DNA of 64,000 nucleotides, taken from Bugula neritina (taxonomy: Eukaryota > Bryozoa > Gymnolaemata > Cheilostomatida > Bugulidae). The position numbers were made by a program, and so were the translations under genes. Shown here in pieces: positions 2,220-28,695 of this stretch. How positions within the stretch are numbered: the stretch's first letter is position 1; each line of letters begins with the position of its first letter. A model generated the notes under the pieces. It was not told where the DNA came from, ran no database searches, and worked only from the letters and a program-made list of their open reading frames with translations. The DNA lies in assembly GCA_964035545.1 (NCBI GenBank), contig OZ037770.1:3515662-3579661 (forward strand). Reading direction: 5' to 3'.

Positions 2220-2272
2220 GTTCCTTCAGTCTTGGCTCGCGGAGAGGGAAGGCATCCGCGGGCCGTGACAGT

Positions 2273-3178: not shown

Positions 3179-3469
3179 TTATAATAAGAGTGGGAGTTTG
3201 TGTATTATCTAGTTATCTACGTTGCATGTTGAAGTACTAGACGGAGAGTTGCGATAGAAGATATATTTAATACACTAATAGAATACGAGTAACACTGGTC
3301 GAGAAAATACATATAAAACATAAGACTTCTAATAACATACAGCATCACGCTCTGACTGAGCACACTAACCATACACAAACTACAGTTTAGTTATAATGCC
3401 GGGAACAGATCACGTGTTGTACGTGATTGGCTAGTGAGCGCATGGCCCGACGCTTCACTGCCCACTACA
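3163..3469 (-). repeat. 5' LTR of element A
   Basis: On the minus strand this begins TGTAGTGGGCAG and ends TTATAACA, followed directly by GTGGTGGCAGCC, a TGG-type tRNA primer-binding site. The 307-bp length matches the 301-bp 3' LTR of element C (60878-61178), which has the same ends. It marks the upstream boundary of element A. Confidence 0.8.
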
Positions 3470-4546: not shown

Positions 4547-6418
4547 TTAAGGGTTGTTCTTTCTATTAAACCCATCGAAGCCAGGAAAAAGGTAAAGTAT
4601 TTTACCATAAGGAAGAGTATTCCAGATTACAATCAAACTTCCGTTTCTCTCTGAATCTTCATCTGCATAGAGTTTCTTCACTAGTTTAGTCTGTACCTGT
4701 AGAGTAAGTAATGACTAGTAAGATTGTTTATCAATTCACTATTATAGCTGAGACAAGACGTAAAACTAAAAATGTTATTAAAACTAAAGTAGATATTTTT
4801 TTTCAGAGGACAAAAGGATTCAAACATAGAAATGAATAGAATGATATGATGAGAAATAATATTTTGATTTCTTAAATAAAAATTGAAATAGCAAAAAAAA
4901 TTTTGATTTTTAAACATGCCTGCTGGAAGATGGTGTAGAGATCACGGTGACAGGCATGTTTGTAGATTGAAGATACTAGGGCTCTAATCATAGGAGATCC
5001 ATACTTAAGATGTCTTTTTGATGCTAAAATAAAAGTATATGTTGCAGCTCAAAGCATATGGTGTAGACAGAGCAAGCTTAAAATTGTGTTGAGTTTTTTT
5101 TCTGTTTTTAGCATTAGCACGCAATATGGTTAGTACACGGAAAAGCTTACATAACATAGTCAAATTAACTTTAGAAAACAGGCAACAAACTTTTACATTG
5201 ACAAAAAACTGTAGTTGCACACTACTAATAAATAACTATCTCTTGTTATACTTACAGCAGACGTTACTCTTTAGAACAAGAAGATCATCTATATCTCGTA
5301 AAGTTCTACACTCTTCTATTCTAGGTTCTGGTGGTGAGACAGGTCTGATTGGTCTTATCACACTGGGTGTTTCAGGATATACAATATCATCATTAGCTTC
5401 AGAATGTGTAGAAGAGACAGCTTCAGTTTCTTCTTCTTGAGCTGCTGCAAGACTTGATCTGTCTGGACTCACCTCAATGTCTGCTGTGAGACAAACATTG
5501 CAAATATCTTAACTTTGTGAACTAAACAATCTCGAGACACCTAGTTGCTCAAGCATCAAAACTGTGAATCAAGTTAAAGTGTATATTGATTAGATGACTG
5601 GTCTCTGACAGGAAGTCTTCACTAGTTTAACCATTGAACTAAAAGTTCCAGTTTATACTACAAAACAACTACCTCCATTGCTGGCTTCTAGGATGACAAC
5701 TTTAGGTTTTCTCTTCATTCCATCGAAATACAAAGGAGTAAGTAAATCATGAAGTTCAGTGAGGTTGACCTTCTTAAGGTCAGTTCCATAGATGCAATTA
5801 TCTTCCCCACCATGAGTCATGACAACCAGCATATGACATCCCAAGTCTCTGTGTGTTTCTTTTTTCACCTCAGTCTTCACAGTAGACAGCATTTCCTACA
5901 AATTTGAAAATATGTATATAACCAACATAATAAATTCACTTTATTTCAAGTTTCCAAATGACTGTGATTTATGCAATGCAAACAAAAACTTTTCACATGA
6001 ATCTATCTATCGAAAGACCAAACAGTGAAAAAAAAACCAACAAGCTCCAGAAATTTTGATGCAGTTGTAGAGATATTCTAAGAACAATAAAAAAAAACAT
6101 AATTTAATGGATGTAAAAAATAATTTTATTTTGCTAAAATATTTTACATGCTTCAAAAATATTTGATTAAAGGACAATAAACATTATATATGAAAATTTA
6201 CTTGATGGTCAAATAGTGTTCGCATTACCTTCACCATAACAACATACCTCTGCCTTTAGGTCTGTGTGTGTCTCAACATCAAACTGAAGAGATTTCAACA
6301 TGACAGACATATTCTCAACATCAGCATCTGAACCTTCCCTGCATAAGTCTGGTCTTTCAACAAAGTTCTTATTGTTTATTATCAAAGCTCTTCCTCTCTT
6401 TCCGGTCATACTGAACAC
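4547..6418 (-). CDS. Caspase-like (pseudocaspase) domain, five exons
   Basis: Exons 6248-6418, 5673-5895, 5256-5483, 4920-5023 and 4547-4696. The p20 part starts MTGKRGRALIINNKNF, then CREGSDAD (the S1-pocket Arg is kept) and MTHGGEDNCIYGTD (the catalytic His is kept). The catalytic loop reads KPKVVILEASNG where active caspases have QACRG, so Ser replaces the nucleophilic Cys. A linker of about 65 acidic and Pro-rich residues leads to p10, with DDLLVLKSN, GSPMIRAL and YTIFQQ in place of the usual SWR and GSWFIQ. It ends LPYGKILYLFPG, like the caspase C-terminal strand, and a TAA at 4547-4549. The intron between 4920 and 4696 appears to be GC-AG (CAG/GCATGT). It is probably proteolytically dead and may act as a scaffold or decoy. 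Confidence 0.85.
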
Positions 6419-9400
6419 CTGGATATAAATATAGTTAGAGTATCACATACAGTAGTGACACACATGAGCCAAAGTTGAGAGTACATAGATAGTGGCATAG
6501 TTTTAAAATAAATAGTAATAGTTAATTCAGATCTCAAGATGCCATATATGATGCCTCCAATTTCTAGGTCTGACAAAAAGCAGCAAAACACTCTGTTAGT
6601 TGCAAAATCAACTTTATATCTTTATGCTTAGTTTTAGGCTTGTTACTTTTTAGGTTAGGTGAACTAAGCAAACTCTTGTTTAAGAGACCAGTTGTCATTT
6701 TTTCCAACAAAACATGTAAGTAGTCAACTAGGCATGCTGGTTGTTTTTACAAAAGTCATTCAGGATATTATTGAGGTTACTGCATGATTCTACTTCATTG
6801 GAAATAGCTTATATTTAACGTTAAGTTTTTACAAACCAAGCATGTATTTGCAAGGCTGTAGAAGTAAATAAAAACAATTTATTGCTATAATAAAATTTCT
6901 TTGCATATAACACTTTACTGGCCCAAAATAGACTATGGTCTATTTTATGCAATCAAAGTTTCTAAGACCATCTGCAAAACATTTACCTAACTTACAAATA
7001 CAGTTGATCGAAATAGAAAATTATGGTAAATTCAACTTCAAGCTAAAAGGTCAGAAAAGAAATTATAATATAAAATGTTTGCCCCACTAGGATTACTCTA
7101 TGACCATAGGAGTTACTGGGAAATCCCAATCCTTCATTCTAAGCAATTCTTTTGAACTCGATTTACAACTCCTTCAGTCTTCAGGTTCTCTTAGCTTCTC
7201 ACCTCCTTAGAAGCACTGCTACTGCTACTACTACTCTTTACAAAAGGTTAAAAGAGCCCACAAAAATGCCTCTCCCGACGAGAATTCAAATGGCAGAAGT
7301 CCAGCTTTCGAGCATGCAAGGCAGGATAAACATTACACCACAAGGACGAAGAAGTAATCTCTACACAAAAGATGCTTTCTAATCATGACAAGCAATTGAA
7401 CCCTAAACTAATAAAAGCAGAGCAGAAACTGTTATGGTGAAACCAAAACGTATAAGTATAGTAAAATGATGGAATTTGAAAATCTGCATGCCTTCAGATC
7501 AATTGATTTTTAAATCTAATTGAACTGCACATGACAATCTCAGTAAAAGAAGTTTTTAGAGACCGAAGTAGTCTACTGGGTGGAGAAAGGAGAGCTGCTA
7601 TAACTTGTGTTCATCAACTGATACGTTCACCTTGTCAGTGTTTGAGAAAAGTTGTTTTATCCTTGGGTTGGTTGTTGGCTTTAGTTCAAGTTGTACCAAC
7701 TTCATGTCTTTCTCATTCTCTTCATCAGGGTACAGATTGTCATCATCTTCAGAGAGATCACTCAGATTATCATCATCAAATTCATCTGCAGTCATATGGT
7801 TAGACAGATTATCGTCAACATTTGAAATCGTAGACTGCGTATCTCGCCTAGTCAACAGAAGCTGAAGCAAATAATTTTAAAAGAAACAATTAGACATGAT
7901 TTGCAGATAATTGTAAGGCAAAATTTGCAAAGCCTATTATTTTACTAATAATGTGGGTTTGAAAATTTAGTCCTGTCTAAAAATTTTACCATTTGATTTG
8001 TTCTGCTCTCTTCGAACTTTGAGCTCAGAAAGAAACTTCTTCAATTGATTTGTTTCTGCTTCAGACAAAGTCTCACCTGAGCAAAACAGACATAATTAGT
8101 AACATTAAAACTGGATGAGAGGCATTAGAAAAATATGAGACATAATCAAAAGCTCATGTATCAAGTTTATACTTTATAAGTCAGCCTAGAAGTTCAATAG
8201 AGTAGCTGTGTAGTTTGCTAATGTCCATCTAGCTGCTATTAAAATTTATCAATGCATGAAAAAACAGTAAATACTATTTAAAAACATTTGGGCAAACCAA
8301 TCAAAATTGAATCATAGTTGTAAACATACATGGATGAATTAGAGCACTGGGTATTTCTTCATCGTTACACAATATCTTTGAAGATCCATGACACTTCTTG
8401 ACATTTGGTGGCAGTTGGTTTTTTGGAGAACGGAGACACCATTTAGGATGCAAAAGCTTTTTAGGGCAAGAAACCCCCAGTAGCATGCAGTGAGCACAGA
8501 TGCAGGCAGTAACTGGTCGACTAGCAGTCCAAGTTCCCATCACATGTCTGAGAATGTTGTTTGTGGCTGAAATGAGTTTTTCCCACATCCTTGGAATGTG
8601 AGGAGCATCGGATGACACATAGAGTAAGACTCTTCTAGATTCATAATCATGTGTCAGCTGTGTGTATGTCTCATCTTGATAGACATTAGCTCCATTTCTC
8701 TTCACCTTCATTGTAGCAAACTCTTTAGAAAACAGTTCTAGCAAACCAACTGTCATTTGATGGTAGACATGCTGCGGTAAAGCCAGGCCCTTAAACTTTA
8801 TCTCAGTGTGAAGGGCCATTTCCTTTGGTGAGGTGTATGACACACCTTGATGTTCCTTAGCAAACTGAGGGATGATGAAGTACGATTCATGGACATCATT
8901 TTCCAGAGGGCCATACAACAAACGGAATGTTTTAAGCAAGCAAACAGCAGTTTCAACATCATGGGAGCTTTTGAATAATGTTTCCTTTGCGATCAAATAT
9001 GTTAGAAGAGATTTCATCATCAAGCCCGTTGTTTTGAAGCAATTCACAGACTCTTCAAACTCTTCTGTTTCAATTCTCAACCCTTCTTCGGAAATGCATG
9101 ATTGGAAGTGATCAACTCTTTTCTGCCAGATCTCTGGGTCATGATGATACAAGACACAGAGTAGTTTGGTAACTTCCGTGATCTTCTGAAATATGTATGG
9201 TTTGAGTGCTTCAATATTCTTATACCACAAGACTTTACCGCAGTCGTGCATGTATGTGAGAATAGTATCTAGCTGATGTGGCTCAACCTCAATACCTTCT
9301 TTTCTCAATTCTAGCAGAATAAATGAAAAAGAGCTGAAAGCTCTGGTTAAAGACAAAACTTTCTCATTCACTTCTTCCCAGATCAGTGGCAAAAGCTTAA

Positions 9401-12400
9401 CAAAGTGCTGACTACTTAGAAGGAGCGAGCTCTTTATCATTTCAAACTCAACATACTTGTCATCCTTTCCAATCTCATAAACATCTTCACTGGCAAAAAC
9501 CTTTCCATTTGATGAATTGAAATGCTGAATTTTCGAAAAATCTCCATCTGAACTTTTCTCTTCATCAAGAACCTCTTTGCACAGCTGTTCAGATACTTCA
9601 AGAAAGTTTTCTTTAAGCTGTTGGAAGTGTTGACTCTGAAACTTATCCTTGTGTGTGAAGACAAGCTTAGGTGGGCCAAGAGTAGGATGGGCGAGATAGA
9701 GGTGAGACATAAAGTCAAAGGCTAACTTTCTGACAGCCTCTTTGTTTGTAAACTCATTTGAAATCTGGTCATACTGCTCCATGTTGACAACAATTACCGG
9801 TACACAATTCTGTCTCAGTGTTAAATGGTATGTGATATGATAGACCTCCTGGCCTCCCATGTCTATGAGACGAAGAGTTGTACCATCCACCTCCACCTCT
9901 TCCACCTTAACCCTTACGCGATCAATGGACCATATATGTCCCTCAAAGCGACACTATCCACAGATCAATGGACCATATATGGTCTTTTAGGTAAACAAAC
10001 AATAGCGCTTACTTTAAACTTCCAGTTTTCAACCGAACAGCCTAAAAGTTTTTGTAATTGATGCTGATACTGTAGCTTGGTAATTTTGGGATAATTATAG
10101 CCAATAAATTTGATTAAATTAATAGCTACCAAGCCAGCTAGTTGCTTTTCAATTTAATCCTTAAATTTCAAAATTATCGGTAAATTTTAACGCTACTTTC
10201 AAATGCAAGAAATTGCTGTCAAATTATAGAGAGCCAGTTTATTTTATTTAAATACCATTTAGAAGAACATCTAAATAAACAGAAATGTTAAAGTCACTAT
10301 ATTTTGAATCATATTATAAATTAATTTTTTCATTTTGAGTTTTCAATTTTAAAATGGCGGTTCTGAGAGGTCAAATTTAAATGACTGATTTTAGCTAGAA
10401 TTAAGGTCTCCCTTCGCTTTAAGAAGCTTTTTATAATAGAAAACACTCTTAAAATTATAATAACCAGTTTATTTAGGGCCAAAATCAAGTGTAACTTTTA
10501 ATAATGAAATTGAAAGTTATGCAAAATTTGCTAGCAAAATTCGCGATAAACTCAAACGAGGCATAAAATTACGTAACTTCAAAGTTGATCGCGAAAGGGT
10601 TAAACACTTTTGTGGTCTCATCATACTCTGCATTCGAACTTCTGTCAGTCAGAACTCTCCTCCTGTCAGTGCTCTGTAATGTTCTGATTAGACTGGTTTT
10701 ACCTGCCATTGTGTTCCCCAACACCACTATTGTAGCAAATGGCAGATTTCTACCAGCACCCTTAACCAAATCTGTGTAGTATTGTCGCACAGCATCTAAT
10801 CCTCTTTCACAAACTTCTAGTGGAGGAGATGTAAGAGCATTGCAATCATCTGTATCCAGTCTGTGAAGACGTGTTAGCTGTAGTATCTCAGGGTTCAAGG
10901 ATGTCATGGATCTGTTGTCGGATATATTCAGTGTGTGCAGATTACTCACCGTGCACACTGAAGATGGGAGACTGGTGAATTTATTGGAAGATATGTCAAG
11001 TATCTGTAATTTTTGTAGATTCTGTATCCTAATAATACATTACATTCATATTATCAGCACATACTAGATGTGAGTGAGATCTAATTATAGCTGTCATAAA
11101 TCTACAATGATAGTGAAGCAATTATACACAGAATTTGGACGTATGAAGTGGCAATGGCTACAGTGACCTTATAATATAAAACCCTTTAAAGTAGTATGGG
11201 ATATAATTGTAATTCTAGAATTTTCATTTATTGATATTCTCACAATTATCAAGTGCTATTTTTGATATTTTAAATCATTTACAAAACTACAATTACAATG
11301 AATTGGTAAAAGATATTAAAAAAGTAATTTAGTGTCACAATTCATAATGCTTCCATAGACAATGTTGTTTTATATAACATGTAGTTGAGTATAACTGCTT
11401 AGACTGATATTTTATTAGATATGTGTAGTATATATATTATAAATATGTACCATGTATAATACAGTTATAATCAAACTATATAGAGGCAAAGTTATTATAT
11501 ATGAGTCTGCATGAAGTATTACAGAAAGTATGCCAGGGAAAAACACAATTCTCAGCATTACACTTTAACAAACAATGCTAAGAAATACACATTAATATTT
11601 GTTGAACAGAAAGTTCAATTTTTATCAATTTTGCTATATGATGAACTACAAGTTCAGGGTACCCTTTTACTATCTTGCAGGGATATTACGTGTGCATTCT
11701 TTAAAAGAAAGTTTTGTAATTTAAAAAGGAGAGCAAATCATTGAACATGTTATAGATATGAACAACTTGTCATGTATATACCATTTCTAGCTTTACATAG
11801 GAGAGGTATGAACACCATAATGTAGTTTAACTGTGTTGACTATTCTGCTGAAAAAAATGTTTTAAATGTGACACACAAACCTCTCAGGTAGAGTAGATAG
11901 TTTACATCTCCTCATATTCAACTCTTTAAGTGATGTGAGAGATGACACAACTTCTGGTATTGTGTTGAGAGAAGTACCTCCTATGTCTAGTTTCTCTAAC
12001 TGAGTCAGCTGACACAGACTGTAATATAAAGTGTATGATATATGTAGTCTGCATAACTATAGTATTTTATACTATATACACATTTTGTTTTCAACCAGGT
12101 AAAATTATATACAACTTAACTACCAAGCGACTGATTGTAGCATTGTACATGCAAAGCATGAAGAAATATCAGTTCATTATAATAATGTGAAAGTATAAAA
12201 TTATTAAACTCAGTGAATGCTAATAAACTAAAAATAACTGCTGACTATTCACTAAATTTTATAGCGCAAGAATATATAATGGCCTATCTTAAAATTATGT
12301 TATTTCCACCATATATACAAACTACTACATATATATAAATTCCTTTAAAAAAGTACATTTCATGTTGCAGAGCATGAGAAGTTAACAGTTTATTACAATA

Positions 12401-15400
12401 GTATACAAGTATTCAATTATTATATATACTCAGTGTGTGAATACTAACCAACTATACAACTGCTTACTATTATTTACATTTTATAGCACAAGAATATATA
12501 ATGGCATACCTTAAATTATGTTGCTTTTTCAATATTACAGTCTATATTTCATATAAAATTAAAAAAAAATTGCATTTCACATATTTTTCAATTAAATAAT
12601 GACAAGCCCTAGTTTTACTTGGTAGGAAACTCTTTTATGATTTCAAGTATTAAATTCTTTAAACAATACAAAAACTGTGACAAACAAACCTCTCAGGTAG
12701 AGTAGATAATTTACAGTCCCACATATTCAACTCTTTAAGTGATGAAAGTGATGACACAACCTCTGGTACTGTGTAGAGAGGATTCCCTCCTATGTTTAGT
12801 TTCTCTAACTGAGTCAGCTGGCACAGACTATAAACATACAGTGTTTGATATATATTTTAGTTTTACTTATACAGAGTACAATTACTAGAGTTGCTATAAC
12901 TACCACATGATTATGAAGGATAAAAAACTATACTATCAATTTATTCCTTCATAACAGATCTATATAATGTAACATACTATCATAACGCTGGACTGCTAAG
13001 TAAAAATATAACAGTTTATTATAATAGTACACAAGTATTTATTTTTAAACTCAGTGAATACTAATAAACTAGAAATTATTGCTTACTAATAATTACACTT
13101 TTATAGCACAACAGTATATAATGGCATATAACCTTAAAATTGTGTTATTCCCACAATATTATAAACCATTGCATATATATATGTGTGTAACTTCAAAACA
13201 TTGCATTTCACATTTTTCCAATTATTTTTCAATTATACAATGGCATACCATATAATTACACTTGGTAAGCATATAAAGTTGTCAAATATTAAATGTTTCA
13301 AACAATACAAAAACTGTGACAAACAAACCTCTCAGGTAGAGTAGATAATTCACATATCCTCATATCCAACTCTTTAAGTGATGTGAGTGATGACACAACT
13401 CCTGGTACTGTGTTGAGAGGATTGGACCCTATGTCTAGTTTCTCTAACTGAGTCAGCTGACACAGACTGTAATATAAAGTGTATGATATATATGTAGTCT
13501 GTATTACTATAATATTTTATACTATATTCACATATTGTTTTCAACCAGGTGAAACTATATACAACTTAACTACCAAGCAACTTATTAAGTAGCATTGTAC
13601 ATGCAGAGCATGAGAAGTTAACAGTTTATTATAATAGTATACAAGTATCCAATTATTATATATACTCAGTGCATGAATACTAATAAACTATACAACTGCT
13701 TACTATTATTTAAATGTTCATAGCACAAGAATATATAATGACATATACCTTAAAATTTCACTATTTTCCCAATATTACAGACCATATTTCATATAGAATT
13801 CAAAAAAATTGCATTTTACATATTTTTCAATTGTATAATGACATGCCCTAATTACACTTGGTAAGAAACTATTTTATGATTTCAAGTCTCAAATGTTTCA
13901 AAAAACACAAAATCTGGGACAAACAAACCTTTCAGGTAGATGAGATAATTTACAGTTCCACATATTCAACTTTTTAAGTGATGTGAGTGATGACACAACT
14001 TCTGGTACTGTGTTGAGAGGATTCCATCTTATGTTTAGTTTCTCTAACTGAGTCAGCTGACACAGACTATAAACATACAGTGTTTGATATATTTAGTTTC
14101 ACTTATACAGAGTACAATTACTAGAGTTGCTATAACTACCACATGATTATGAGTGATAAAAAACTATACTATCAATTTATTTCTTCATAACAGATCTATA
14201 TAATGTAACATACTACCATAACGCTTGACTACTAGGTAAAAATATAACAGTTTATTATAATAGTACACAAGTATTTATTTTTAAACTCAGTGAACACTAA
14301 TAAACTAGAAATTATTGCATACTATTAATTACATTTTTATAGCACAACAATATATAATGGCATATAACTTTAAAATTGTGTTTTTCCCACAATATTATAA
14401 ACCATTGCATATATATATATGTGTAACTTCAAAACACTGCATTTCATATTTTTCAATTATACAATGGTACACCATAATAACACTTGTTATGCATATAAAG
14501 TTGTCAAATATTGAATGTTTTAAACAATACAAAAATATTGTGACACAAACCTCTCAGGTAGAATAGATAATTTACAGTTCCCCATATCCAACTCTTTAAG
14601 TGTTGTGAGTGAAAACACAACTTCTGGTACTGTGTTGAGAGTATTCCAACCTATGTCTAGTTTCTCTAACTGAGTCAGCTGACACAGACTGTAATATAAA
14701 GTGTATGATATATGTAGTCCTCATTACTATAATATTTTATACTTTATTCACATTTTGTTTTCAACCAGGTAAAACTATATACAACTTAGCTACCAAGCAA
14801 CTTATTGCAGCATTGTACATGCAGAGCATGAGAAGTTGACAGTTTATTATAATAGTATACAAGTATTCAATTATTATATACACTCAGTGTGTGAATACTA
14901 ATCAATTATACAACTGCTTACTATTATTTACATTTTTATAGCACAAGAATATATTATAATGGCATACCTCAAATTATGTTATTTTCACAATACTACAGAC
15001 CATATTTCATATAGAATTAATAAATTGCATTTCACATATTTTTCAATTATATAATGACATAACCTAACAATACTTGGTAAGAAATTATTTTATAATTTCA
15101 AGTATTAAGTGTTTCAAACAATACAAAAACTGTGACAAACAAACCTCTTAGGGAGAGTAGATAATTCACAGTTCCCCATATTCAACTCTTTAAGTGATGT
15201 GAGTGATGACACAACTTCTGGTACTGTGTTGAGAGGATTCCATCTTATGTTTAGTTTCTCTAACTGAGTCAGCTGACACAGACTATAAACATACAGTGTT
15301 TGATATATTTAGTTTCACTTATACAGAGTACAATTACTAGAGTTGCTATAACTACCACATGATTATGAGTGATAAAAAACTATACTATCAATTTATTTCT

Positions 15401-18400
15401 TCATAACAGATCTATATAATGTAACATACTACCATAACGCTTGACTACTAGGTAAAAATATAACAGTTTATTATAATAGTACACAAGTATTTATTTTTAA
15501 ACTCAGTGAACACTAATAAACTAGAAATTATTGCATACTATTAATTACATTTTTATAGCACAACAATATATAATGGCATATAACTTTAAAATTGTGTTTT
15601 TCCCACAATATTATAAACCATTGCATATATATATATGTGTAACTTCAAAACACTGCATTTCATATTTTTCAATTATACAATGGTACACCATAATAACACT
15701 TGTTATGCATATAAAGTTGTCAAATATTGAATGTTTTAAACAATACAAAAATATTGTGACACAAACCTCTCAGGTAGAATAGATAATTTACAGTTCCCCA
15801 TATCCAACTCTTTAAGTGTTGTGAGTGAAAACACAACTTCTGGTACTGTGTTGAGAGTATTCCAACCTATGTCTAGTTTCTCTAACTGAGTCAGCTGACA
15901 CAGACTGTAATATAAAGTGTATGATATATGTAGTCCTCATTACTATAATATTTTATACTTTATTCACATTTTGTTTTCAACCAGGTAAAACTATATACAA
16001 CTTAGCTACCAAGCAACTTATTGCAGCATTGTACATGCAGAGCATGAGAAGTTGACAGTTTATTATAATAGTATACAAGTATTCAATTATTATATACACT
16101 CAGTGTGTGAATACTAATCAATTATACAACTGCTTACTATTATTTACATTTTTATAGCACAAGAATATATTATAATGGCATACCTCAAATTATGTTATTT
16201 TCACAATACTACAGACCATATTTCATATAGAATTAATAAATTGCATTTCACATATTTTTCAATTATATAATGACATAACCTAACAATACTTGGTAAGAAA
16301 TTATTTTATAATTTCAAGTATTAAGTGTTTCAAACAATACAAAAACTGTGACAAACAAACCTCTTAGGGAGAGTAGATAATTCACAGTTCCCCATATTCA
16401 ACTCTTTAAGTGATGTGAGTGATGACACAACTTCTGGTACTGTGTTGAGAGGAATCGATCCTATGTATAATTTCTCTAACTGAGTCAACTGACATAGGCT
16501 ATAAACATACAGTGTTTGATATATTTAGTTTTACTTATACAGAGTACAATTACTAGAGTTACTATAGCTACCACATGATTATGAGAGATAAAAAATTATG
16601 CTATCAATTTATCCCTTCATAACAGATCTATATAATGTAACATACTATCATAACGCTTGACTACAATATAGGTAAAAATATAACAGTTTATTATAATAGT
16701 ACACAAGTATTTATAATTTAAAACTCAATGAACACTAATAAACTAGAAATTATTGCTTACTAATAATTACATTTTCATAGCACAGCAATATATAATGGCA
16801 TTTAACCTTAAAATTGTGTTATTCCCACAATATTATAAACCATTGCATATATTTGTGTAACTTCAATACATTGCATTTCATATTTTTCAATTATATAATA
16901 AATGACATACCGTAATAACACTTGGTATAAGCATATAAAGATGTCAATTATTGAAGGTTTCAAACAATAAAAAGAATTAGCAATACAAACCTCTCAGGTA
17001 GAGTAGATAATTTACAGCCCCCCATTTGCAACTCTTTAAGTAATGTGAATGATGACACAACTTCTGGCACTGTGTTGAGAGGATTATATGCTATGCCTAG
17101 CGTCTCTAACTGAGTCAGCTGACATAGACTGTAATATAAAGTGTATGATATATATGTAGTCTGCATTACTATAATATTTTATACTTTATTCACATTTTGT
17201 TTTCAACCAGGTAAAACTATATACAACTTAACTACCAAGCAACTTATTGCAGCATTGTACATGCAGAGCATGAGAAGTTAACAGTTTATTATAATAGTAT
17301 ACAAGTATTTATAATTTAAAACTCAATGAACACTAATAAACTAGAAATTATTGCTTACTAATAATTACATTTTCATAGCACAGCAATATATAATGGCATT
17401 TAACCTTAAAATTGTGTTATTCCCACAATATTATAAACCATTGCATATATTTGTGTAACTTCAATACATTGCATTTCATATTTTTCAATTATATAATAAA
17501 TGACATACCGTAATAACACTTGGTATAAGCATATAAAGATGTCAATTATTGAAGGTTTCAAACAATAAAAAGAATTAGCAATACAAACCTCTCAGGTAGA
17601 GTAGATAATTTACAGCCCCCCATTTGCAACTCTTTAAGTAATGTGAATGATGACACAACTTCTGGCACTGTGTTGAGAGGATTATATGCTATGCCTAGCG
17701 TCTCTAACTGAGTCAGCTGACATAGACTGTAATATAAAGTGTATGATATATATGTAGTCTGCATTACTATAATATTTTATACTTTATTCACATTTTGTTT
17801 TCAACCAGGTAAAACTATATACAACTTAACTACCAAGCAACTTATTGCAGCATTGTACATGCAGAGCATGAGAAGTTAACAGTTTATTATAATAGTATAC
17901 AAGTATTCAATTATTATATATACTCAGTGTGTGAATACTAATCAACTATACAACTGCTTACTATTATTTACATTTTATAGCACAAGAATATATAATGGCA
18001 TACCTTAAATTATGTTGTTTTTACAATATTACAGTCTATATTTCATATAAAATTCAAAAAAAATTGCATTTCACATATTTTTCAATTATATAATGACAAG
18101 CCCTAGTTTTACTTGGTAGGAAACTCTTTTATGATTTCAAGTATTAAATTCTTTAAACAATACAAAAACTGTGACAAACAAACCTCTCAGGTAGAGTAGA
18201 TAATTTACAGTCCCACATATTCAACTCTTTAAGTGATGTGAGTGATGATACAACTACTGGTACTGTGTTGAGAGGATTCCCTCCTATGTATAGTTTCTCT
18301 AACTGAGTCAGCTGGCACAGACTATAAACATACAGTGTTTGATATATATTTTAGTTTTACTTATACAGAGTACAATTACTAGAGTTGCTATAACTACCAC

Positions 18401-21400
18401 ATGATTATGAGGGAGAAAAAACTATACTATCAATTTATTTCTTCATAACAGATCTATATAATGTAACATACTATCATAGCGCTGGACTGCTAAGTAAAAA
18501 TATAACAGTTTATTATAATAGTACACAAGTATTTATTTTTAAACTCAGTCAATACTAATAAACTAGAAATTATTGCTTACTAATAATTACACTTTTATAG
18601 CACAACAATATATAATGGCATATAACCTTAAAATTGTGTTATTCCCACAATACTATAAACCATTGCATATATATGTGTAACTTCAAAACATTGCATTTCA
18701 CATTTTTCCAATTATTTTTCAATTATACAATGGCATACCATAATAACACCTGGTAAGCATATAAAGTTGTCAAATATTATTTGTTCCAAACAATACAAAA
18801 ACTGTGATAAACAAACCTCTCAGGTAGAGTAGATAATTCACAGCTCCACATATACAACTCTTCAAGTGATGTGAGTGATGACACAACTTCTGGTACTGTG
18901 TAGAGAGGATTCCCTCCTATGCCTAGTTTCTCTAACTGAGTCAGCTGACACAGACTGTAATATAAAATGTATGATATATATGAGTCTGCATTACTATAAT
19001 ATTTTATACAATATCCGCACTTTGTTTTCAACCAGGTAAAACTATATACAACTTAACTACCAAGAAACTTATTGTAGCATTGTACATGCAGAGCATGAGA
19101 AGTTAACAGTTTATTACAATAGTATACAGGTATTCAATTATTATATATACTCAGTGTGTGAATACTAACCAACTATACAACTGCTTACTATTATTTACAT
19201 TTTTATAACACAAGAATATATAATGGCATAAATACCTTAAATTATGTTGTTTTCACAATATTACAGACCATATTTCATATGGAATTAAAAAAAATTGCAT
19301 TTCACATATTTTTCAATTATATAATGACATGCCCTAATTATACTTGGTAATAAGAAACTATTTTATGATTTCAAGTAATAAATGTTTCAAACAATACAAA
19401 ACCTGTGACAAACAAACCTCCCAGGTAGAGTAGAAAATTTACAGCTCCTCATATCCAACTGTTTAAGTGATGTGAGTGATGACACAACTTCTGGTACTGT
19501 GTTGAAAGGATTATCTTCTATGTGTAGTTTCTCTAACTGAGTCAGCTGACATAAACTGTAATATAAAGTGTATGATATATATGTAGTCTGCATTACCATA
19601 ACATTTTATACTATATTCACATTTTGTTTTCAACCAGGTAAAACTATATACAACTCAACTACCAAGCAACTTATTGTAACATTGTACATGCAGAGCATGA
19701 GAAGTTAACAGTTTATTATAATAGTATACAAGTATTCAATTATTATATATACTCAGTTTGTGAATACTAATCAACTATACAACTGCTTACTATTATTTAC
19801 ATTTTATAGCACAAGAATATATAATGGCATACCTTAAATTTTGTTATTTTCACAATATTACAGACCATATTTCATAAAGAATTAAAAAAATTGCATTTCA
19901 CAGATTTTTCAATTATATAATGACATAACCTAATTATACTTGATAAGGAACTATTTTATGATTTCGAGTATTAAATGTTTCAAACAATACAAAACTGTGA
20001 CAAACAAACCTTTCAGGTAGAGTAGATAATTCACAGCCTTCCATATTCAACTCTTCAAGTGATGTGAGTGATGACACAACTTCTAGTGCTGTGTTGAGAC
20101 GATTCCATCTTATGTCTAGTTTCTCTAACTGAGTCAGCTGACATAAACTGTAATATAAAGTGTGTAATATATGTAGTCTACTGTATCATATATATAATAA
20201 TATAATCTGTACTCAGCTATAATGTAAATTATGGAGCAAACAATTTTGTTGAAACAGGGTACAGCAAAAAAAAGCTATTATGCCATGTTATACGTGTAAT
20301 GGGTGCCCTGTGTAGAATTGAGTGATTAGATGTACATGTATAAAGACATCCTGTAAGTTTAATAGATAAGGGGTACATCTACAATGTAATGCGAGTATAT
20401 AGTATGATTTATAATAATAAATGGTTTACTTTGTTATAGCTAATCCGACACAAATTAGCATGTATTTAATATTCCGAAAATATTTTATTTTTAAGTATAT
20501 ATGGCTACATATAATATGCTTATAATATATTATGTGTTGCAGATAAACACCTTCTGTATAATCCTACATGTATACATGTACTGCAATAATATGTTACTTC
20601 TGTATTCAACTACATAAAACATGTTTTAATTTATGATAGCGTGTGTAACACTACAGTTTCCCACTGTCTAATTTCTACAACTCGTTCAGCTGGTAGAGAT
20701 ACAATGTTATACATATTACTATAGCTTTATATAGTGCATGATTACATCATGAGTATAAGAATGTACTTCAGCATTGACCCAGATACATGCATCGTGGGTG
20801 ATAATTACCACAACTAAACTCATTTAACATTTACACAGCTATCATAATAGACACTCACTTGTCTAGACTTGCTCTGTCAGTCAGGTGAGAAACACGTAGA
20901 CGCAGGGCTTTACCAGCAATCTCTCCAATGTTGTTTGGAATTCTCCCTTCCAGTTTCAGATCTCTGATGCAATTTCTCCCAACTTCATGTTTCACCTCAG
21001 CAGCAGTATATGACTTGGTATTAGCTTTCCATACATCCCACCAGTCTACAGGAGGCTGACCAGAATGTCTGAACCAGATTCTCATACTCTCTGTAACATC
21101 ATACAATGACAGTTTAATTATTACACAGTGTTAGCAGGTGATGTCTGTCATTCTGAAACCTGTCACATATATCTATTATTTGCTGCATGTGTGTCAGTCA
21201 CCATAGCTATATATAGACATATCTGACTACTTTAGGTTTATGAAAGTAAAATCTGCAAATTTAAAATGATCTCTATTTTTTTAAAAACAACTGCTTTGTG
21301 TAAAAACTTTGAAATTATGCTGCTTCAGTTTCAATGAAGATCTTTTTAAATAATGTTGACATATATTAAAAATTATATAAATATATTAATACATTTTAAA

Positions 21401-24400: not shown

Positions 24401-27400
24401 TGATAGTGACTCATATAGTGAGCAACCCATTAACGATGACTGCGTGGTCTAGAGGTTAGAGGCGTCAGCGACGAGTTGGTTGGTCATGGTTCAACCCTGT
24501 TTTGTTGCAATTTTTTTTGTCAATTTATGCAAATCCTACGCATGTATAATAAATATGGCTATAAGTGTAAAGTTTTTTTTTTAACTTTTGTTCAACAGTA
24601 AGACAACATACATGCATAATAATTAGATACTGAACGCTGGACTAAACCTTAAATTGATCTTATAGAATACAATGTACTTAAAATAATCATATGTGAATTA
24701 GAGAAACTGAAAGTACACCTGCTGTGCTATAGACCTTTACTGACAAGACTGCAAAGTGAAGTGATTTAGCTGAAATTAACTCTGCCAAACAAACAAAGAA
24801 TTATGTTGTGCTAAGGCATTTTCAATATATTATTGTAACATAGTGAGATGATTCAGCTAAGTGCTAATGTAAAACAGGGAACATTATCTTGGCAGAAATC
24901 CAATAGATTGCCAATTTGTGCGAGAGGGTACTATATGTTATTGTGATAGCGCAGAGCGGCAAACGTACTAGGAATGTTATAATTAGTCACAGGAGCGTAG
25001 CTAGAACCACCATATGAAGAATTTAGAAAATTGCAGTGAAACTTGCAAAATGGTGTATGTTTTTACCAAATTGTGAAGAGCATAAACAGAATTTCAAAAA
25101 ACAAAGAAAGTATATTAGAGAAAACATATCAAGGAATGTCAAGTTTAACTTTTAGACTTTATAAAATGAATCCCCTGTGCTACAGCAGTGGAACATGGAG
25201 GGTATAAAATTTTACTTATTATGCAACAACTTTCTCAGAAAATTTTTTATTGAAAAATTAAAAAAGTATATGAAAGAGGAATGCAAGAGCTATCTTTTCA
25301 TGTAAAATTTGTTAATGTGAGACAAAAACTGTTCGAGCTATCCCCTGGAAACCGTTTATATATAACATAAAGCAGTGCTTGAATCTGGAAAGTAATGACC
25401 TTAAACTAACTGTGAATAAACAGACCTACGGGCTCGCTCTTTACACTTCTGTATTCCCAAATGTCCCTGGTGAATCTTGTTCAACATTTCTTTTCGTGCA
25501 CCAACCGGAACAACTAGGCGCTCACCTACGAAAAGAAAACCACCAGCTTCATATAGTTCATCTCTTACCAACCAATAGGGTTGTAGGTTGGCAGGTGCAT
25601 GACTACGATGCGTCCAGTCCCAACCCTCTTGGCACGCCTGCTTGAGATCCGACATTGTTGTGTCATCCGAATATGCCGTACTCAACCAGTCACTCATCTC
25701 ACTTGCAACCTCCAGCGAGTGAACCATCACTACTTCATCCTCCAGGTCAGCTTGGGTCGACGGAGTCTTAGTGCTATACGCTCTAGACAGAGTATCAGCA
25801 AGATAGAGATATTTCCCTGGGACATAGGTGACCTGGGCTACTTCATAACGTTGTAATCTCAGGAGCAGTCGTTGTAGCCGTGGAGATGCTTTATGTAAAG
25901 GTTTCTTCATTATGGATAACAAGGGACTGTGATCAGTCTGTAGTGCTATAGGACGACCATAAACATAGCTATGGAAGTACTCACAGCCAAAGACCATAGC
26001 TAGTAACTCTTTATCAATTTGGGGATAATTGATCTCAGCACTGGTCAGGGCCCGAGAGCCATAGGCTACAGGCCTACCCTGCTGTAGTAGCACAGCACCA
26101 AGCCCAGACTTTGAGGCATCTACTTGGAGATTTACCGGCTTGTTTACATCAAAGTACTTCAAAACACTGTCATTCATGAGAACACTTCTGATATTGGCCA
26201 TGGCTGATTGCTGTTCTGGACCCCAGAACCAATCCACATCCTTCTTCAAAAGGCATCTGAGAGGTTCAGTAATTGTGGACATATTCGGGATGTAGTTCCT
26301 AAGAAAGTTGACTGTGCCCAACAGCCGTTGTACACCATTTCTGTCTGTGGGTTCAGGCATGTCTGCAATAGCTGACACCTTGTTTGGGTCAGGCTTTAGA
26401 CCATCTACGGACACAATATGCCCAAGGTAGTTGACTTCTTGCCGATTAACTTGAATTTTTTCTTTGTTAAAACGCACATTGCACTCCCGGGCTCTCTGCA
26501 ATACTTTGTGGAGGTTATTGTCATGTTCCGCCTGCGTGCGACCGGCCACAATTAGGTCATCAAAGTATATGGAGACCGCTAGATCACCAAAAATCTGTTC
26601 GACACGTTTTTCGAACACTTCGGCAGATGAGTGAAGGCCAAATGGTAGTCTTTTATAGCAATATCTGCCAAATGGCGTGTTGAACGTAGTGAGAAGACTA
26701 CTTTCAGGGGATAGGCGGATATGCCAATAGCCATGCTTCATATCCAGAATAGTAAAGCGTTTCATGCCATTAAACCTGGTGGCAGCGGTATTTGTTTCGG
26801 CTCCTGTGTCAACTTTGAAAGAATTTCTTTCACTGTCCTTCAACTTGACATCCACAAACCACGACTTCTTAGCCTCGACTGTCTCTACCATTCCGATAAA
26901 CAAGGTTGAAAGATTTTTATCCAGCACTTCTTCTCCAGTCTCGACTCCAACGGCATGAACGAGCTTTTTTGGGCATCGTTTTTCAAAGTGATTTAAACCA
27001 TGACAACTGTTACACTTTTTGCCATATGCCGGACATTTGCCGTAGACATGTTCATACGAACAGAATCTGCATTTTATCTTCTTGTCAGTGGTAAGTCCAC
27101 CCTTGTGAATGGGTTTGTTGACAACAGTGGCAACCTGTCTCATCGCTAAACTAGACTTATCCCCATCAGCAATCAGGCTCAGCTGTGCTTCAGTCATCTC
27201 AGTAGCCCGAATATCCTCTACGGCTTTTTCTAAAGTCATCGTGTTGTCACGAAGTAATCTTTCCTTCAGCTTTACAGATGTCAAGCCAAAAACGATACGA
27301 CATAGCAACATCTTTGACTTCACACCCTCTGGAAAGTCACACCGCGATGCCTGTGACTTGAGTCGCTTTAAATATACATCTATAGGCTCACTTTCAGTCT

Positions 27401-28695
27401 GCGACATCGACCAGAACACAAACCACTCATAGAGCTCATTTTTTCTCGGGTTACAATATGTATCAAACATATCCAGTACATCACTTAGTACCGTCTTACT
27501 TTTCCCAGCTGGGGCCTCCAACTGTGAGAAAATCTCATTGGTCTCGTCGCCAGCAATATGCAGAAACATTGCTATCTGCCTCCGGGATATGGCTGCATTG
27601 CCGGCAGGTTCAGGGTCTGTGGGATTCGCTTTGGGAGTTAGAACTACATCAATAGCCATCAAATAATTTTCAAAATTTCTGCGGAATCGTTTCAAGTTCT
27701 CCGACACATTGCCCTCAAAACACATCCCAGAAGGCTGTCTGAGACCATCCATGACTTTATCAAACAACGGACAAATTCACAAATAACAAAAGAAAACCAC
27801 CACAATACTAAACTCAAACTGCAACCATCAAAAGAGCCGCAAGTTCAACATAAAAAGAAAAAACAAACACAAAACTTCAGGCAGAACAACAGCAAGTATC
27901 AAACAAACAATTCAAATCACTGGAAGAGTAGAGAAAAGCCGTCAATGAATTGATTGCTCACAACCAGTGAATCATATAATCAGACTTAATCTGCAGCTGA
28001 AGTTAGTACGCGCTGCCACCATGTTGTATTCTTACCTTCGTATGATGATGTGAACGTTGCAGTCAATGACAAGTACGTTACTAGTAGTAAAATAAGAATT
28101 TAAAAGTATTTCTATGGCTGGCCAGCCGAAACCTAAACTTGACTTCTAACATTCGAAATCTCGCTTCTGCCCCGCTGGGGGTATATCCGGTGTGACATTG
28201 TAACACTAAACACAACAAAAATGATTTGAATTTAAAGCAGCCAAAAGACGCCAAATTATTATTTCATATCTATGCATGCACAAAAAAGGTACAAATAGCA
28301 ACATCAAGTTAAAACTTTTTATATCTGACACTGCATACTTCTTACCCTATGAGTCACACAGTCAATATTTACAGGATGATTCTAGAAATACATGGACTAG
28401 TATATAGCTAGAACACTTTCTGATAGTGAGATATATAAAGTTGATTATTTGAATGTTACTCATATGTTTACTATGGAAACAAGCAAACTACCACAGAAAA
28501 GTTTTTGAAAACTCATGTCCCAATAGTTAAAACATTTACTAGTTTTGCTAAAATGAAACTCACACCCATGCAGAGCTAAATTTGTTTAAACCTATATTCA
28601 TAGTAACAACCAGTAGATAACTTTGGTTGAAAGCAAAACTTGTAACTAAGTTTTTCATCAAAAATCTATCAAAACAACTCACCATCTGTTGCCAT
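4547..28695 (-). CDS. LRR-Roc-COR-caspase-like gene (about 23 exons)
   Basis: Minus-strand multi-exon gene. Exons in order: 28683-28695, 20859-21090, fourteen 138-nt LRR exons between 20147 and 11881, 8330-11028 (interrupted by a MITE), 7990-8076, 7631-7861, 6248-6418, 5673-5895, 5256-5483, 4920-5023, 4547-4696. The phases fit throughout (1; 2 for every LRR exon; 2 to 1; then 0, 0, 1, 1, 0), with one exception between 7990-8076 and 7631-7861. The order is a short novel N-terminus, about 31 LRRs, Roc GTPase, COR, acidic linker and caspase fold, roughly 1,790 residues without the MITE. Roco proteins are GTPase switches that dimerise through COR. A C-terminal caspase-like output would make this a receptor of NLR-like logic; that function is inference. 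Two gene models are possible if the phase break is real: a Roco protein plus a separate caspase-like protein. Confidence 0.8.
7631..7861 (-). CDS. Acidic linker exon before the caspase-like domain
   Basis: A 231-nt exon, phase 0-0, from acceptor TTGCTTCAG to donor AAG/GTGAAC. It encodes about 77 residues rich in Asp and Glu (ADEFDDDNLSDLSEDDDN), then a basic-mixed stretch ending NTDK. It joins in frame to the caspase exon at 6418. It contains an in-frame ATG near 7797, so it could be the first coding exon of a separate caspase-like gene. Acidic Asp-rich linkers are plausible caspase substrates, but that is speculation. Confidence 0.6.
7990..8076 (-). CDS. Short helical exon after COR
   Basis: This 87-nt exon has acceptor GCTCAG and donor GTAAAA. 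The only open frame fits the phase 1 left by the Roc-COR exon and encodes a charged helical segment (LSEAETNQLKKFLSELK). It leaves phase 1, but the next exon (7631-7861) is only open in phase 0. Entered in phase 1 that exon stops after four residues. Either the Roco protein ends here, or there is a missed splice variant or a frameshift. Confidence 0.6.
8330..11028 (-). CDS. Terminal LRRs, Roc GTPase and COR domain exon, split by a MITE
   Basis: Phase-2 acceptor (ATTATTAG) and GTATGT donor. It begins with about three more LRRs, then a Roc GTPase with P-loop GNTMAGKT near 10700, a switch I region DETTKVF ending at 10604, switch II DMGGQE near 9860 and G4 motif THKD near 9650. A COR region of about 300 residues follows, with GKVLWYKN and a YFIIPQF-like segment, and a Cys-rich tail (CICAHCMLLGVSCPKK). 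The reading frame stops inside the 689-bp insertion at 9911-10599. Leaving out the insertion and one TTAA copy gives 2006 nt with correct phases at both ends. Roc-COR proteins bind GTP and dimerise through COR. As sequenced, the exon is interrupted between switch I and switch II. Confidence 0.85.
9911..10599. mobile_element. piggyBac-type MITE inside the Roc coding exon
   Basis: The 689-bp element is flanked by TTAA on both sides (9907-9910 and 10600-10603). Its inverted ends are CCCTTACGCGATCAA and CCCTTTCGCGATCAA, with a second inner match around ggaccatatatg. TTAA target duplications and CCC-starting ends are the signature of piggyBac elements. There is no transposase frame, so it is non-autonomous. 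Joining the flanks through a single TTAA restores the Roc frame without adding or losing a codon. Confidence 0.88.
11881..20147 (-). CDS. Array of 14 LRR exons
   Basis: Fourteen exons, each exactly 138 nt and phase 2-2, encode two 23-residue leucine-rich repeats apiece (SLCQLTQLEKL ... VPEVVSSLTSL ... LSTLPE). Exon coordinates: 20010-20147, 19418-19555, 18817-18954, 18184-18321, 17589-17726, 16991-17128, 16361-16498, 15767-15904, 15145-15282, 14551-14688, 13929-14066, 13329-13466, 12690-12827, 11881-12018. Those I translated have no stop. The acceptor is usually TTACAG or TATAG and the donor GTTTGT. Variation concentrates just after the LEKL and LKEL strands (for example DIGGTS, GIAYNP, HIEDNP), the part of an LRR that faces ligand. 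The introns fall into two alternating sequence classes, so growth was probably by exon pairs of about 1.2 kb as well as single units. The LRRs probably bind ligand or act as an autoinhibitory scaffold. Confidence 0.88.
14041..16470. repeat. Recent 1216-bp tandem duplication in the LRR array
   Basis: Sequence from about 14041 recurs at an offset of 1216 bp up to about 16470, covering two LRR exons and their introns. It is near-identical by eye, and an 83-codon intronic stretch at 14315 and 15531 is the same in both. The exon at 15145-15282 is a hybrid: one half matches 16361-16498 and the other matches 13929-14066. The crossover therefore lay inside homologous LRR coding sequence. Confidence 0.85.
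16690..17886. repeat. Recent 598-bp tandem duplication of one LRR exon
   Basis: The blocks from about 16690 and 17290 repeat at an offset of 598 bp. Each contains one LRR exon (16991-17128 and 17589-17726) encoding the same amino acids, with near-identical introns. The junction falls in a shared intronic stretch, acagtttattataatag. Alternatively it could be an assembly artefact, since the copies look identical. Confidence 0.8.
20655..20705 (-). pseudogene. Relic of a decayed LRR exon
   Basis: On the plus strand tgtctaatttctacaact and the following ttcagctgg align with the conserved 5' half of LRR exons (tgtctagtttctctaact, gtcagctga). The rest has decayed, and the frame reading LYQLNEL meets a stop. 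It sits between the N-terminal exon and the first intact LRR exon, where another unit would be expected. Confidence 0.45.
20859..21090 (-). CDS. N-terminal domain exon of the Roco-caspase gene
   Basis: This 232-nt exon has a TTACAG acceptor and a GTGAGT donor. It encodes about 77 residues with a Trp-rich start (IWFRHSG, DWWDVWKANTKSY) and a charged helical remainder ending in RASLD. It leaves phase 2, matching the first LRR exon. I do not recognise the domain. Its position before the LRRs suggests a capping or adaptor role, without direct evidence. Confidence 0.65.
21403..21598 (-). repeat. 3' LTR of the intron-1 retrotransposon
   Basis: 196 bp, the same as the copy at 28022-28217, bounded by TG...CA ends. 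The polypurine tract is at 21599-21608 and the aaaat target duplication at 21398-21402. Confidence 0.95.
21815..22885 (-). CDS. Integrase part of the intron-1 retrotransposon pol
   Basis: The 356-codon frame starts in the flank of the nested insertion, then continues with CWPGLNQDI and C-x2-C (CSECAMF), the second half of the integrase zinc-binding domain. The catalytic core follows with Asp in VVDCMSHFPEL, Asp in MADNMPFTS and Glu in NGLAERYVQ, the D,D,E triad of retroviral-type integrases. The C-terminal part has GSEVFMRAG and VHLKPNN, then a Pro/Ser-rich tail. The D,D,E residues are intact, but the N-terminus is cut off from the rest of pol by 2.5 kb. Confidence 0.92.
   Translation of the reverse strand: MKSMTLNQLCWPGLNQDIYSKVSLCSECAMFANRQSKEPLMPHDTPTLPWYTVAMDIMQFRGQDYLLVVDCMSHFPELRLLGGKTAEHVVMALKSIFSIHGVPKSIMADNMPFTSHVMKQFGKDWCFDIVTSSPHHHQSNGLAERYVQTVKQFLRKCEQSQVDVYHSLLVYRETPLSGCLYSPAEMLFSRNLRTGLPTTTAFLTPSTVNSTGALKARQQTAKAYYDQRTKELPNLPLGSEVFMRAGPEKIWTPGCVVGHHGAPRSYLVDNGSRLLRRNRVHLKPNNTIVRPSSELDSSSPTDTEELPNPNLPTPVVSDQEVKAVTPTRSVVPPIGRRGVRSSRGVLPSRFKDFDMN
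22857..25414. mobile_element. Nested 2.56-kb element with 20-bp inverted ends
   Basis: The ends are CACAGTTGGTTTAAGGTCAT (22857-22876) and, inverted, CACAGTTAGTTTAAGGTCAT (25395-25414), 19 of 20 identical. It interrupts the integrase zinc-binding domain. The coding frame of the host element would continue directly across it if one AA dinucleotide is counted once, suggesting a 2-bp target duplication. The interior is AT-rich, with no transposase and only a 66-codon frame, so it is a non-autonomous DNA element of unassigned superfamily. It includes a tRNA-like SINE at about 24437. Confidence 0.75.
24437..24560 (+). repeat. tRNA-derived SINE head
   Basis: Pol III promoter boxes are visible: A box TGGTCTAGAGG (24445-24455) and B box GGTTCAACCC (24488-24497), followed by a T-rich stretch. 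It is too diverged to fold as a functional tRNA. It lies within the nested element at 22857-25414. Confidence 0.5.
25401..27767 (-). CDS. Fused gag-pol ORF with in-frame protease/RT deletion
   Basis: The main frame is 788 codons. The gag part (about residues 1-240) ends in Cys/His-rich zinc-binding sequence including KCNSCHGLNHFEKRCP. The protease starts with its DTGAE catalytic motif near residue 318, but within a few residues the sequence is already in the RT palm (RFTILDMKHGYWHI). Most of the protease and the RT fingers are therefore missing, without a frameshift. The RT active site YFDDLIV, the RNase H motifs (DASKSGLGAVLLQ, TDHSPL, YVPGKYLYLADTLSR) and the start of the integrase zinc-binding region (HQGHLGIQKCKERARR) are present. 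The last residues come from the nested insertion. The product cannot be an active protease or polymerase. Confidence 0.9.
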   Translation of the reverse strand: MFDKVMDGLRQPSGMCFEGNVSENLKRFRRNFENYLMAIDVVLTPKANPTDPEPAGNAAISRRQIAMFLHIAGDETNEIFSQLEAPAGKSKTVLSDVLDMFDTYCNPRKNELYEWFVFWSMSQTESEPIDVYLKRLKSQASRCDFPEGVKSKMLLCRIVFGLTSVKLKERLLRDNTMTLEKAVEDIRATEMTEAQLSLIADGDKSSLAMRQVATVVNKPIHKGGLTTDKKIKCRFCSYEHVYGKCPAYGKKCNSCHGLNHFEKRCPKKLVHAVGVETGEEVLDKNLSTLFIGMVETVEAKKSWFVDVKLKDSERNSFKVDTGAETNTAATRFNGMKRFTILDMKHGYWHIRLSPESSLLTTFNTPFGRYCYKRLPFGLHSSAEVFEKRVEQIFGDLAVSIYFDDLIVAGRTQAEHDNNLHKVLQRARECNVRFNKEKIQVNRQEVNYLGHIVSVDGLKPDPNKVSAIADMPEPTDRNGVQRLLGTVNFLRNYIPNMSTITEPLRCLLKKDVDWFWGPEQQSAMANIRSVLMNDSVLKYFDVNKPVNLQVDASKSGLGAVLLQQGRPVAYGSRALTSAEINYPQIDKELLAMVFGCEYFHSYVYGRPIALQTDHSPLLSIMKKPLHKASPRLQRLLLRLQRYEVAQVTYVPGKYLYLADTLSRAYSTKTPSTQADLEDEVVMVHSLEVASEMSDWLSTAYSDDTTMSDLKQACQEGWDWTHRSHAPANLQPYWLVRDELYEAGGFLFVGERLVVPVGARKEMLNKIHQGHLGIQKCKERARRSVYSQLV
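28022..28217 (-). repeat. 5' LTR of the intron-1 retrotransposon
   Basis: 196 bp, the same as 21403-21598. The primer-binding site TGGTGGCAGCGCG follows at 28021 and lower on the minus strand, and the target duplication aaaat is at 28218-28222. Confidence 0.95.
28223..28682. other. Remainder of intron 1, 5' side
   Basis: AT-rich sequence between the retrotransposon and the putative first exon. No gene or repeat recognised. Confidence 0.4.
28683..28695 (-). CDS. Putative first coding exon of the Roco-caspase gene
   Basis: The minus strand reads ATGGCAACAGATG followed by a strong donor GTGAGT. This gives Met-Ala-Thr-Asp and leaves phase 1, exactly what the exon at 20859-21090 needs (acceptor TTACAG, phase 1). 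The assignment rests on phase, start codon and donor only, because the exon is too short for similarity. If it is right, intron 1 (21091-28682) is 7.6 kb, of which 6.8 kb is one inserted retrotransposon, so the ancestral intron was under 0.8 kb, like its neighbours. Confidence 0.5.

Follow-up and report, generated by a model that had tools for sequence, protein, structure and literature searches.

NLR receptors (NACHT/NB-ARC) combine sensor repeats, a nucleotide switch and a cell-death output. A different NTPase, the Roc GTPase followed by COR, holds the place of the switch in the gene studied here, which lies on the minus strand of a 64,000-nucleotide stretch of chromosome 6 of the bryozoan Bugula neritina (C6:3515662-3579661, the whole of which is called the window); its caspase is predicted to be in cis, whereas that of NLRs is recruited in trans. 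A first-pass annotation had read the exons from 28695 down to 4547 as leucine-rich repeats (LRRs), Roc and COR joined to a caspase-like domain. The locus belongs to a large family of bryozoan genes, the intact members of which are predicted to be single chains of LRR pairs, Roc, COR, an acidic linker and a complete metazoan-type caspase. Papers cited below by PMC number were consulted in part, and what is said of them applies to those parts.

A similar order of domains is known from bacteria, where LRR-AP-GTPase(Roc)-COR proteins carry an LRR sensor, a Roc-COR switch and any of at least 24 C-terminal effector domains, caspase included, and exist as multiple paralogues (PMC8195603). These bacterial proteins vary the effector within one genome, whereas Bugula keeps one effector and varies the LRRs. 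The LRR-ROCO genes of brown algae share other traits with the Bugula family: a large number (9-47 genes per species) and LRR units arranged as arrays of separate exons, there single-LRR and in phase 2. Their ligand face, the concave one, is reported to be under positive selection, for which the Bugula LRRs give a suggestive sign (PMC11378527 for the algae). The algal exons are 72 bp long with one LRR each, no caspase is attached and the genes are mostly dispersed in one species, whereas Bugula has 138-bp exons with two LRRs and a clustered family. The 14 tandem one-phase LRR exons of the window match the brown algal type, a likeness in how they work that need not be one of descent.

Among animals, MFHAS1, LRRK1/2 and DAPK1 share the Roc-COR fold, and MFHAS1 and LRRK also the LRRs, but their output is none, a kinase, or a kinase plus a death domain; the review that treats them distinguishes three Roco groups, none with a caspase, and the word "caspase" is absent from the text consulted (PMC6337361). 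MFHAS1 is described as confined to deuterostomes, and Trichoplax as having expanded its Roco genes (at least 17) with immune-type partners that include TIR and a caspase-recruitment domain (CARD), unlike Bugula, which has the caspase itself (PMC4104024). The Roc-COR of Aplysia is combined with TIR or forms part of MyD88-like proteins (PMC9334734). A protein of Mytilus edulis held by NCBI (P0083) has ankyrin repeats, Roc, COR-A and a caspase with an intact QACRG in one chain; like the Bugula family it brings Roc, COR-A and caspase together, but with ankyrin repeats and no LRRs. Against P0029, a protein of Watersipora subatra, BLASTP aligned its caspase (25%, E 6e-12), and Roc-COR only as a weak P-loop match. 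Since the caspase alone aligns clearly, P0083 would have been assembled independently or have split off very long ago, and it is apparently a separate mollusc Roco-caspase type.

The first-pass annotation knew of no described animal Roco with a caspase output. This stands insofar as no animal Roc-COR-caspase family was recognised in the open-licence literature, judged largely from abstracts, which is not proof of absence; it has to be set beside the published bacterial form (PMC8195603) and the Mytilus protein. The main text of a bivalve caspase paper, as consulted, makes no mention of Roco, Roc domain, COR domain, ankyrin or leucine-rich (PMC7836458). Bacterial LRR-Roc-COR-caspase proteins being already known, the Bugula family is notable for its scale, wiring and phylum.

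The Roc-COR and caspase family

The genome searched comprises 215.8 Mb in 295 contigs; the published genome note gives 216.00 Mb in 320 scaffolds, so that the copy searched is short of some small ones. The note counts 33,722 gene transcripts, and the words "immune" and "caspase" are both absent from the part of it consulted (PMC11480708). Three Roc-COR queries and a Roc profile were used, for which 66 of 157, 66 of 234, 76 of 112 and 150 of 338 candidates were scored. They gave at least 85 distinct Roc-COR exons besides the broken window copy, at least 86 loci with it; 85 is a lower bound because part of the candidates were scored. Nearly all the Roc-COR matches of the first query (63 of 66) are open and stop-free. 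The exons are clustered, 29 of them in C6 2.4-6.4 Mb and 24 past 32 Mb of C1.

A caspase p20 exon was found downstream on the same strand for 83 of the 85 Roc-COR exons within 15 kb, and for 79 within 5 kb. None of the 85 had one on the opposite strand. The caspase matches used were 111 from the search and three added for adjoining Roc exons, without which 80 of 85 are paired; one of the unpaired exons, C6:2607455, has a same-strand caspase match 15.4 kb off, just past the limit. For the first-query set, 64 of 66 exons were paired, whereas 200 local shifts paired 5.5 on average and never more than 12, so that the association lies far beyond chance. A single-gene curiosity is ruled out by this genome-wide pairing.

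Twenty-four loci were then read: 19 picked for adjoining Roc and caspase matches, four further ones (two duplicates being dropped) and the window copy. Caspase exon 2 was present in all 24, linker exon 2 and caspase exon 1 in 23 each and the p10 core in 21; among 18 loci, the more variable linker exon 1 and caspase exon 3 were found in 11 and 12, and caspase exons 4 and 5 in 15 each. Roc motifs (P-loop, switch II and a THKD-type motif) are present in 23 of the 24, the sequence of L016 being cut before them. Roc of L012 scores 31.8 bits against PF08477 (cut-off 27), and COR directly follows it, as recognised by fold and via the relative P0030. No NACHT or NB-ARC match was obtained among the proteins profiled by Pfam, the NTPase being Roc; the P-loop piece gives a weak AAA_16 match (E 0.11).

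From the Roc-COR exon onward, GT-AG splicing of L012 yields a chain of 1037 amino acids, which matches P0029 (1219 amino acids) over 99% of length at 31% identity, with gaps in the acidic linker. Watersipora is also a cheilostome bryozoan, and the NCBI protein models of Watersipora subatra place LRR, Roc-COR and caspase in one polypeptide. A protein search with P0029 gave 17 proteins, 16 of them named Watersipora subatra (isoforms X1 and X2 among the names) and 11 with PF00656, and the five proteins listed for the caspase region were four from Watersipora and one from Mytilus; such searches depend on shared short words, and distant phyla may go undetected. Several of the Watersipora proteins bear the NCBI name MFHAS1. 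A structure model predicted from a 29-row alignment holds both the Roc-COR and the caspase folds; in an earlier model, from a 14-row alignment, the caspase part was unusable, with blocks mostly under pLDDT 40.

We conclude that LRR, Roc-COR and caspase are almost certainly one gene product across the family, as the first-pass annotation had proposed for the window: the co-linearity at 83 of 85 exons, the single chains of Watersipora and a linker omega below 1 (see below) strongly support it. The same annotation had suggested searching related genomes with Roc, COR and C14 profiles; such a search recovered all three domains in a relative, COR by its fold.

The strongest Roc-profile matches lie elsewhere, on small contigs (C58, C90, C99, C144, C186 and others). 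Ten of the top 11 have TAA or TAG inside the match and none has TGA; they may be small GTPases from a symbiont or contaminant that uses a different genetic code.

The window copy and its insert

The motifs quoted in the first-pass annotation (GNTMAGKT, DMGGQE, THKD, RALIINNKNF, THGGED and KPKVVILEASNG) were all located, and its chain of phase-compatible minus-strand exons is real on both sides of Roc (Table 1). The start exon, the N-terminal exon and the 14 LRR exons give 725 codons with zero stops upon spliced translation; the two linker exons and the five caspase exons that follow (8076-4547) make up 372 codons closed by a single terminal stop, and encode p20 and p10. At Roc itself the chain is broken by a 697-bp insert, which the P-loop GNTMAGKT precedes and DMGGQE and THKD follow. 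The exon is open in one frame over 9906-8330, the frame before the insert closes shortly past the insert start, and each half of Roc alone scores under the Pfam cut-off.

Table 1. Features of the chain in the window
Feature	Positions	Strand	Remarks
Start exon, ATGGCAACAGATG (MATD)	28683..28695	-	phase 1 exit; donor gtgagt canonical; in frame with next exon
N-terminal exon (ESMRIWFRHSGQPPVDWW...SLD)	20859..21090	-	AG/GT borders, in frame
14 LRR exons	11881..20147	-	138 bp each (46 amino acids, two LRRs per exon); AG...GT borders, one phase, spacing 592-809 bp
LRR exon first bases	20147, 19555, 18954, 18321, 17726, 17128, 16498		
LRR exon first bases, continued	15904, 15282, 14688, 14066, 13466, 12827, 12018	-	
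Last LRRs, Roc and COR exon, interrupted	8330..11028	-	single exon of about 2 kb in the relatives read
697-bp repeat	9907..10603		splits the Roc exon between P-loop and switch II; TTAA at both ends
Linker exon 1 (CETLSEAETNQLKKFLSELKVRREQNKSN)	7990..8076	-	AG/GT, in frame
Linker exon 2, acidic (DEFDDDNLSDLSEDDDNLYPD...LFSNTDK)	7631..7785	-	in frame
Caspase exon 1 (VFSMTGKRGRALIINNKNF...)	6248..6418	-	PF00656 positions 1-49, E 5.9e-10 (match 6212-6442)
Caspase exon 2, p20 end	5673..5895	-	PF00656 positions 50-129, E 4.6e-8 (match 5656-5895)
Caspase exon 3, inter-subunit linker and p10 start	5256..5483	-	in frame
Caspase exon 4, p10 core (SKRHLKYGSPMIRALVSSIYKHACHRDLYTIFQQ)	4920..5023	-	donor GC instead of GT
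Caspase exon 5, C-terminus and stop	4547..4696	-	in frame to single terminal stop

The insert has inverted ends of 19 nt, TTAA included, that are 95% complementary. Among 113 candidates, 40 genome copies were scored, itself included, the other 39 being at 91-97% identity, and it is presumably a non-autonomous transposon; we take the TTAA target and such ends to be reminiscent of piggyBac-type elements. Its removal as an intron is unlikely. Scored with a matrix built from splice sites of the family (19 donors and 20 acceptors, with lowest scores of 3.7 and 6.0 and medians of 15.0 and 16.6), the best sum among 27 in-frame GT-AG pairs was −1.6, and none neared the family scores; the test covered GT-AG pairs near the insert ends, with GC-AG introns and farther sites outside it. 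Judged on its sequence, the window copy has been knocked out or cut short by the transposon in its Roc exon.

The caspase region has the Peptidase_C14 fold, with p20 and p10; the solved structures closest to the Bugula caspase are those of animal effector caspases, a further difference from the bacterial proteins. In the window copy the catalytic His is retained (THGG) and the catalytic Cys is replaced by Ser (EASNG for QACxG, codon AGC), so that the residue pair of an active caspase is incomplete. This replacement was absent from the first-pass annotation, as were the GC donor of caspase exon 4 and two identical pairs of LRR exons (14688 = 15904 and 17128 = 17726). With Roc disrupted and the catalytic Cys gone, the window copy is not itself an intact sensor-switch-protease, and the idea of sensor, switch and effector in one chain therefore holds for the family and not for this copy, one of at least 86 loci.

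Entry phase equals exit phase in every LRR exon, and the border to the Roc exon is likewise, so that any number of these exons could be gained or lost without a frame shift. The exact duplicates (window 14551-17726) suggest that the array is expanding in steps of about 0.6 and 1.2 kb. The start codon probably lies within the start exon. The N-terminal exon has 62 genome matches including the window copy (C6 32, C1 15, C7 10, C8 4, C102 1) and zero Pfam matches at E≤10; judged by eye, the N-termini of Watersipora P0072 and P0076 resemble it.

The first intron of the gene holds a long terminal repeat (LTR) retrotransposon at 21462-28263, Ty3-like by eye, with minus-strand open stretches of 791 and 366 amino acids and an end sequence repeated near 21.5 and 28.2 kb. 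G+C-richer tracts of the window, at 1-3200, 29.6-33 kb and 54.3-60.4 kb, have gag/pol-like short frames and appear by eye to be further retroelements. A neighbouring gene, L009 and L010 (C6:3580000-3599400), has a stop-free Roc-COR and Ser at the catalytic Cys, with codon TCC where the window copy has AGC; the LRR-exon pattern gave none in the 8 kb upstream.

Selection and the catalytic residues

Omega was estimated for 18 of the 24 loci, six partial or too divergent ones being left out, from pairs with a synonymous divergence (dS) of 0.1-1.2. Median pairwise values were 0.25 for Roc-COR, 0.41 and 0.36 for linker exons 1 and 2, and 0.16, 0.27, 0.54, 0.14 and 0.45 for caspase exons 1-5. The median is thus below 1 in all eight exons from Roc-COR on, with 1 of 98 pairs above 1 in the last exon.

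In 15 related LRR exons, omega was 1.76 at 12 positions taken as exposed (bootstrap over exons 1.08-3.51) and 0.35 at the other 34; a narrower set of six exposed positions gave 1.90, and all 46 positions 0.84. Seventeen exons were read for this sample, 15 of them distinct, and 12 of the 15 come from the damaged window gene. The excess of amino-acid change at exposed LRR sites is suggestive, because the sites were chosen post hoc, most exons are those of a damaged gene and the copies are related.

Catalytic residues were read in 44 caspase exons, from the 24 loci and 20 short fetched stretches. Thirty-four carry Cys at the nucleophile position and 10 have Ser there (codon AGC in eight, TCC in two); His is kept in 43, and the Cys-His pair in 33. 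L011 (C6:4699500-4709400) is the sole member of the 44 with Cys kept but Leu for His (MTLGR). In a caspase tree based on 77 columns, the finer branching of which is not to be read, well-supported branches force at least two label changes, and the window copy falls in a five-member Ser clade (98/96). Ser for Cys probably arose twice, given the forced changes and the two codons; a gain plus a loss fits too. That Ser is mere decay of the window copy is ruled out, as it is common to the supported clade of five.

Mechanism, alternatives and meaning

As a whole, these data are likely best explained by a diversified single-chain receptor repertoire with a switch-controlled caspase; that the family is a diversified receptor repertoire is in itself probable. 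The LRR arc would bind a ligand, and a nucleotide-dependent rearrangement of Roc-COR would shift the dimer state. Brought together in one of the states of Roc-COR, two caspase domains would activate themselves in the manner of initiator caspases on an adaptor platform, yet with sensor, switch and protease in cis. Tandem duplication of the LRR exon unit, with selection at ligand-face residues, would diversify the sensors. The Ser members, the clade of the window copy among them, would act as pseudo-caspases, which modulate active members, pair with them or bind without cleaving. We give a proximity-activated caspase an even chance, and for immunity as the purpose the balance is just as level.

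Several points weigh against this explanation. The Roco protein of C. tepidum shifts between monomer and dimer with the nucleotide and is mainly monomeric with GTP (PMC6337361), so that GTP-driven dimerisation is no direct corollary. With 10 of 44 members lacking the nucleophile and one lacking His, proteolysis would not be every member's function. Several of the exons could not be located in divergent loci, 3 of the 24 loci (L019, L026, L027) have a stop inside Roc-COR, and COR-A of the Bugula exon scores 19.8 in Pfam, below the cut-off of 35.3. The exposed LRR sites were set by LRR geometry after the peptides had been seen, in copies that are related and not independent. Finally, the evidence is throughout that of genome sequence and predicted protein models.

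Bryozoans are colonial and renew their zooids through degeneration, and the family might serve this colony biology, in self/non-self recognition between colonies or in programmed zooid regression, and not pathogen defence. Diversified receptors with caspases suit allorecognition as well as immunity, but sequence does not discriminate between the two, and we regard this as somewhat unlikely.

That the window copy is still functional, its insert being a rare allele or removed from the transcript and its product a pseudo-caspase regulator, is improbable. The remaining chain is open, the window Roc-COR halves give an omega of 0.28 against L027, and its Ser is the one common to its clade; but no splice pair tested around the insert comes near those of the family, one donor is GC, and the relative L027 itself has a Roc-COR stop. 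We think it equally doubtful that the caspase domains are mainly switch-controlled binding modules, proteolysis being lost or secondary. The Ser members and their repeated label changes would fit such a role, but the Cys-His pair is kept in three quarters of the exons read, and the Cys in all seven Watersipora chains read there (P0029, P0033, P0068, P0070, P0072, P0075, P0076).

Roc-COR and caspase domains also occur separately in animals, and two neighbouring genes, LRR-Roc-COR and caspase, could have co-duplicated as a unit, as the gap of up to 11.6 kb between them at some loci, the 31 of 114 caspase matches without a Roc partner among the matches listed (one being the window's own), the two Roc-COR exons without a caspase within 15 kb and the 6 of 17 proteins of the P0029 search without PF00656 in their precomputed domains might suggest; this is highly improbable, since Watersipora models put both in one chain, the linker exons recur, are phase compatible and have a median omega of 0.36-0.41, the phase carries over from the linker into the caspase exons, and between 8330 and 6418 there is just one AATAAA (6883) and zero ATTAAA.

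The diversified single-chain repertoire may, tentatively and at somewhat less than even odds, be specific to the bryozoan lineage: at least 80 in-cis receptors diversified by exons, with a set of Cys-to-Ser pseudo-caspase partners, forming a further architecture beside the NLR and Toll types. Bryozoan immunity and allorecognition are, to our knowledge, little understood, and more than 80 chains of sensor, switch and caspase would, if true, open a direct way into both. Because the catalytic Cys has been lost repeatedly, the family would also supply pseudo-caspases made by nature. The Roc-COR switch, known above all from LRRK2, would then be wirable to a protease in animals as it is in bacteria, and the family would provide a clean test of whether Roc-COR governs the output attached to it.
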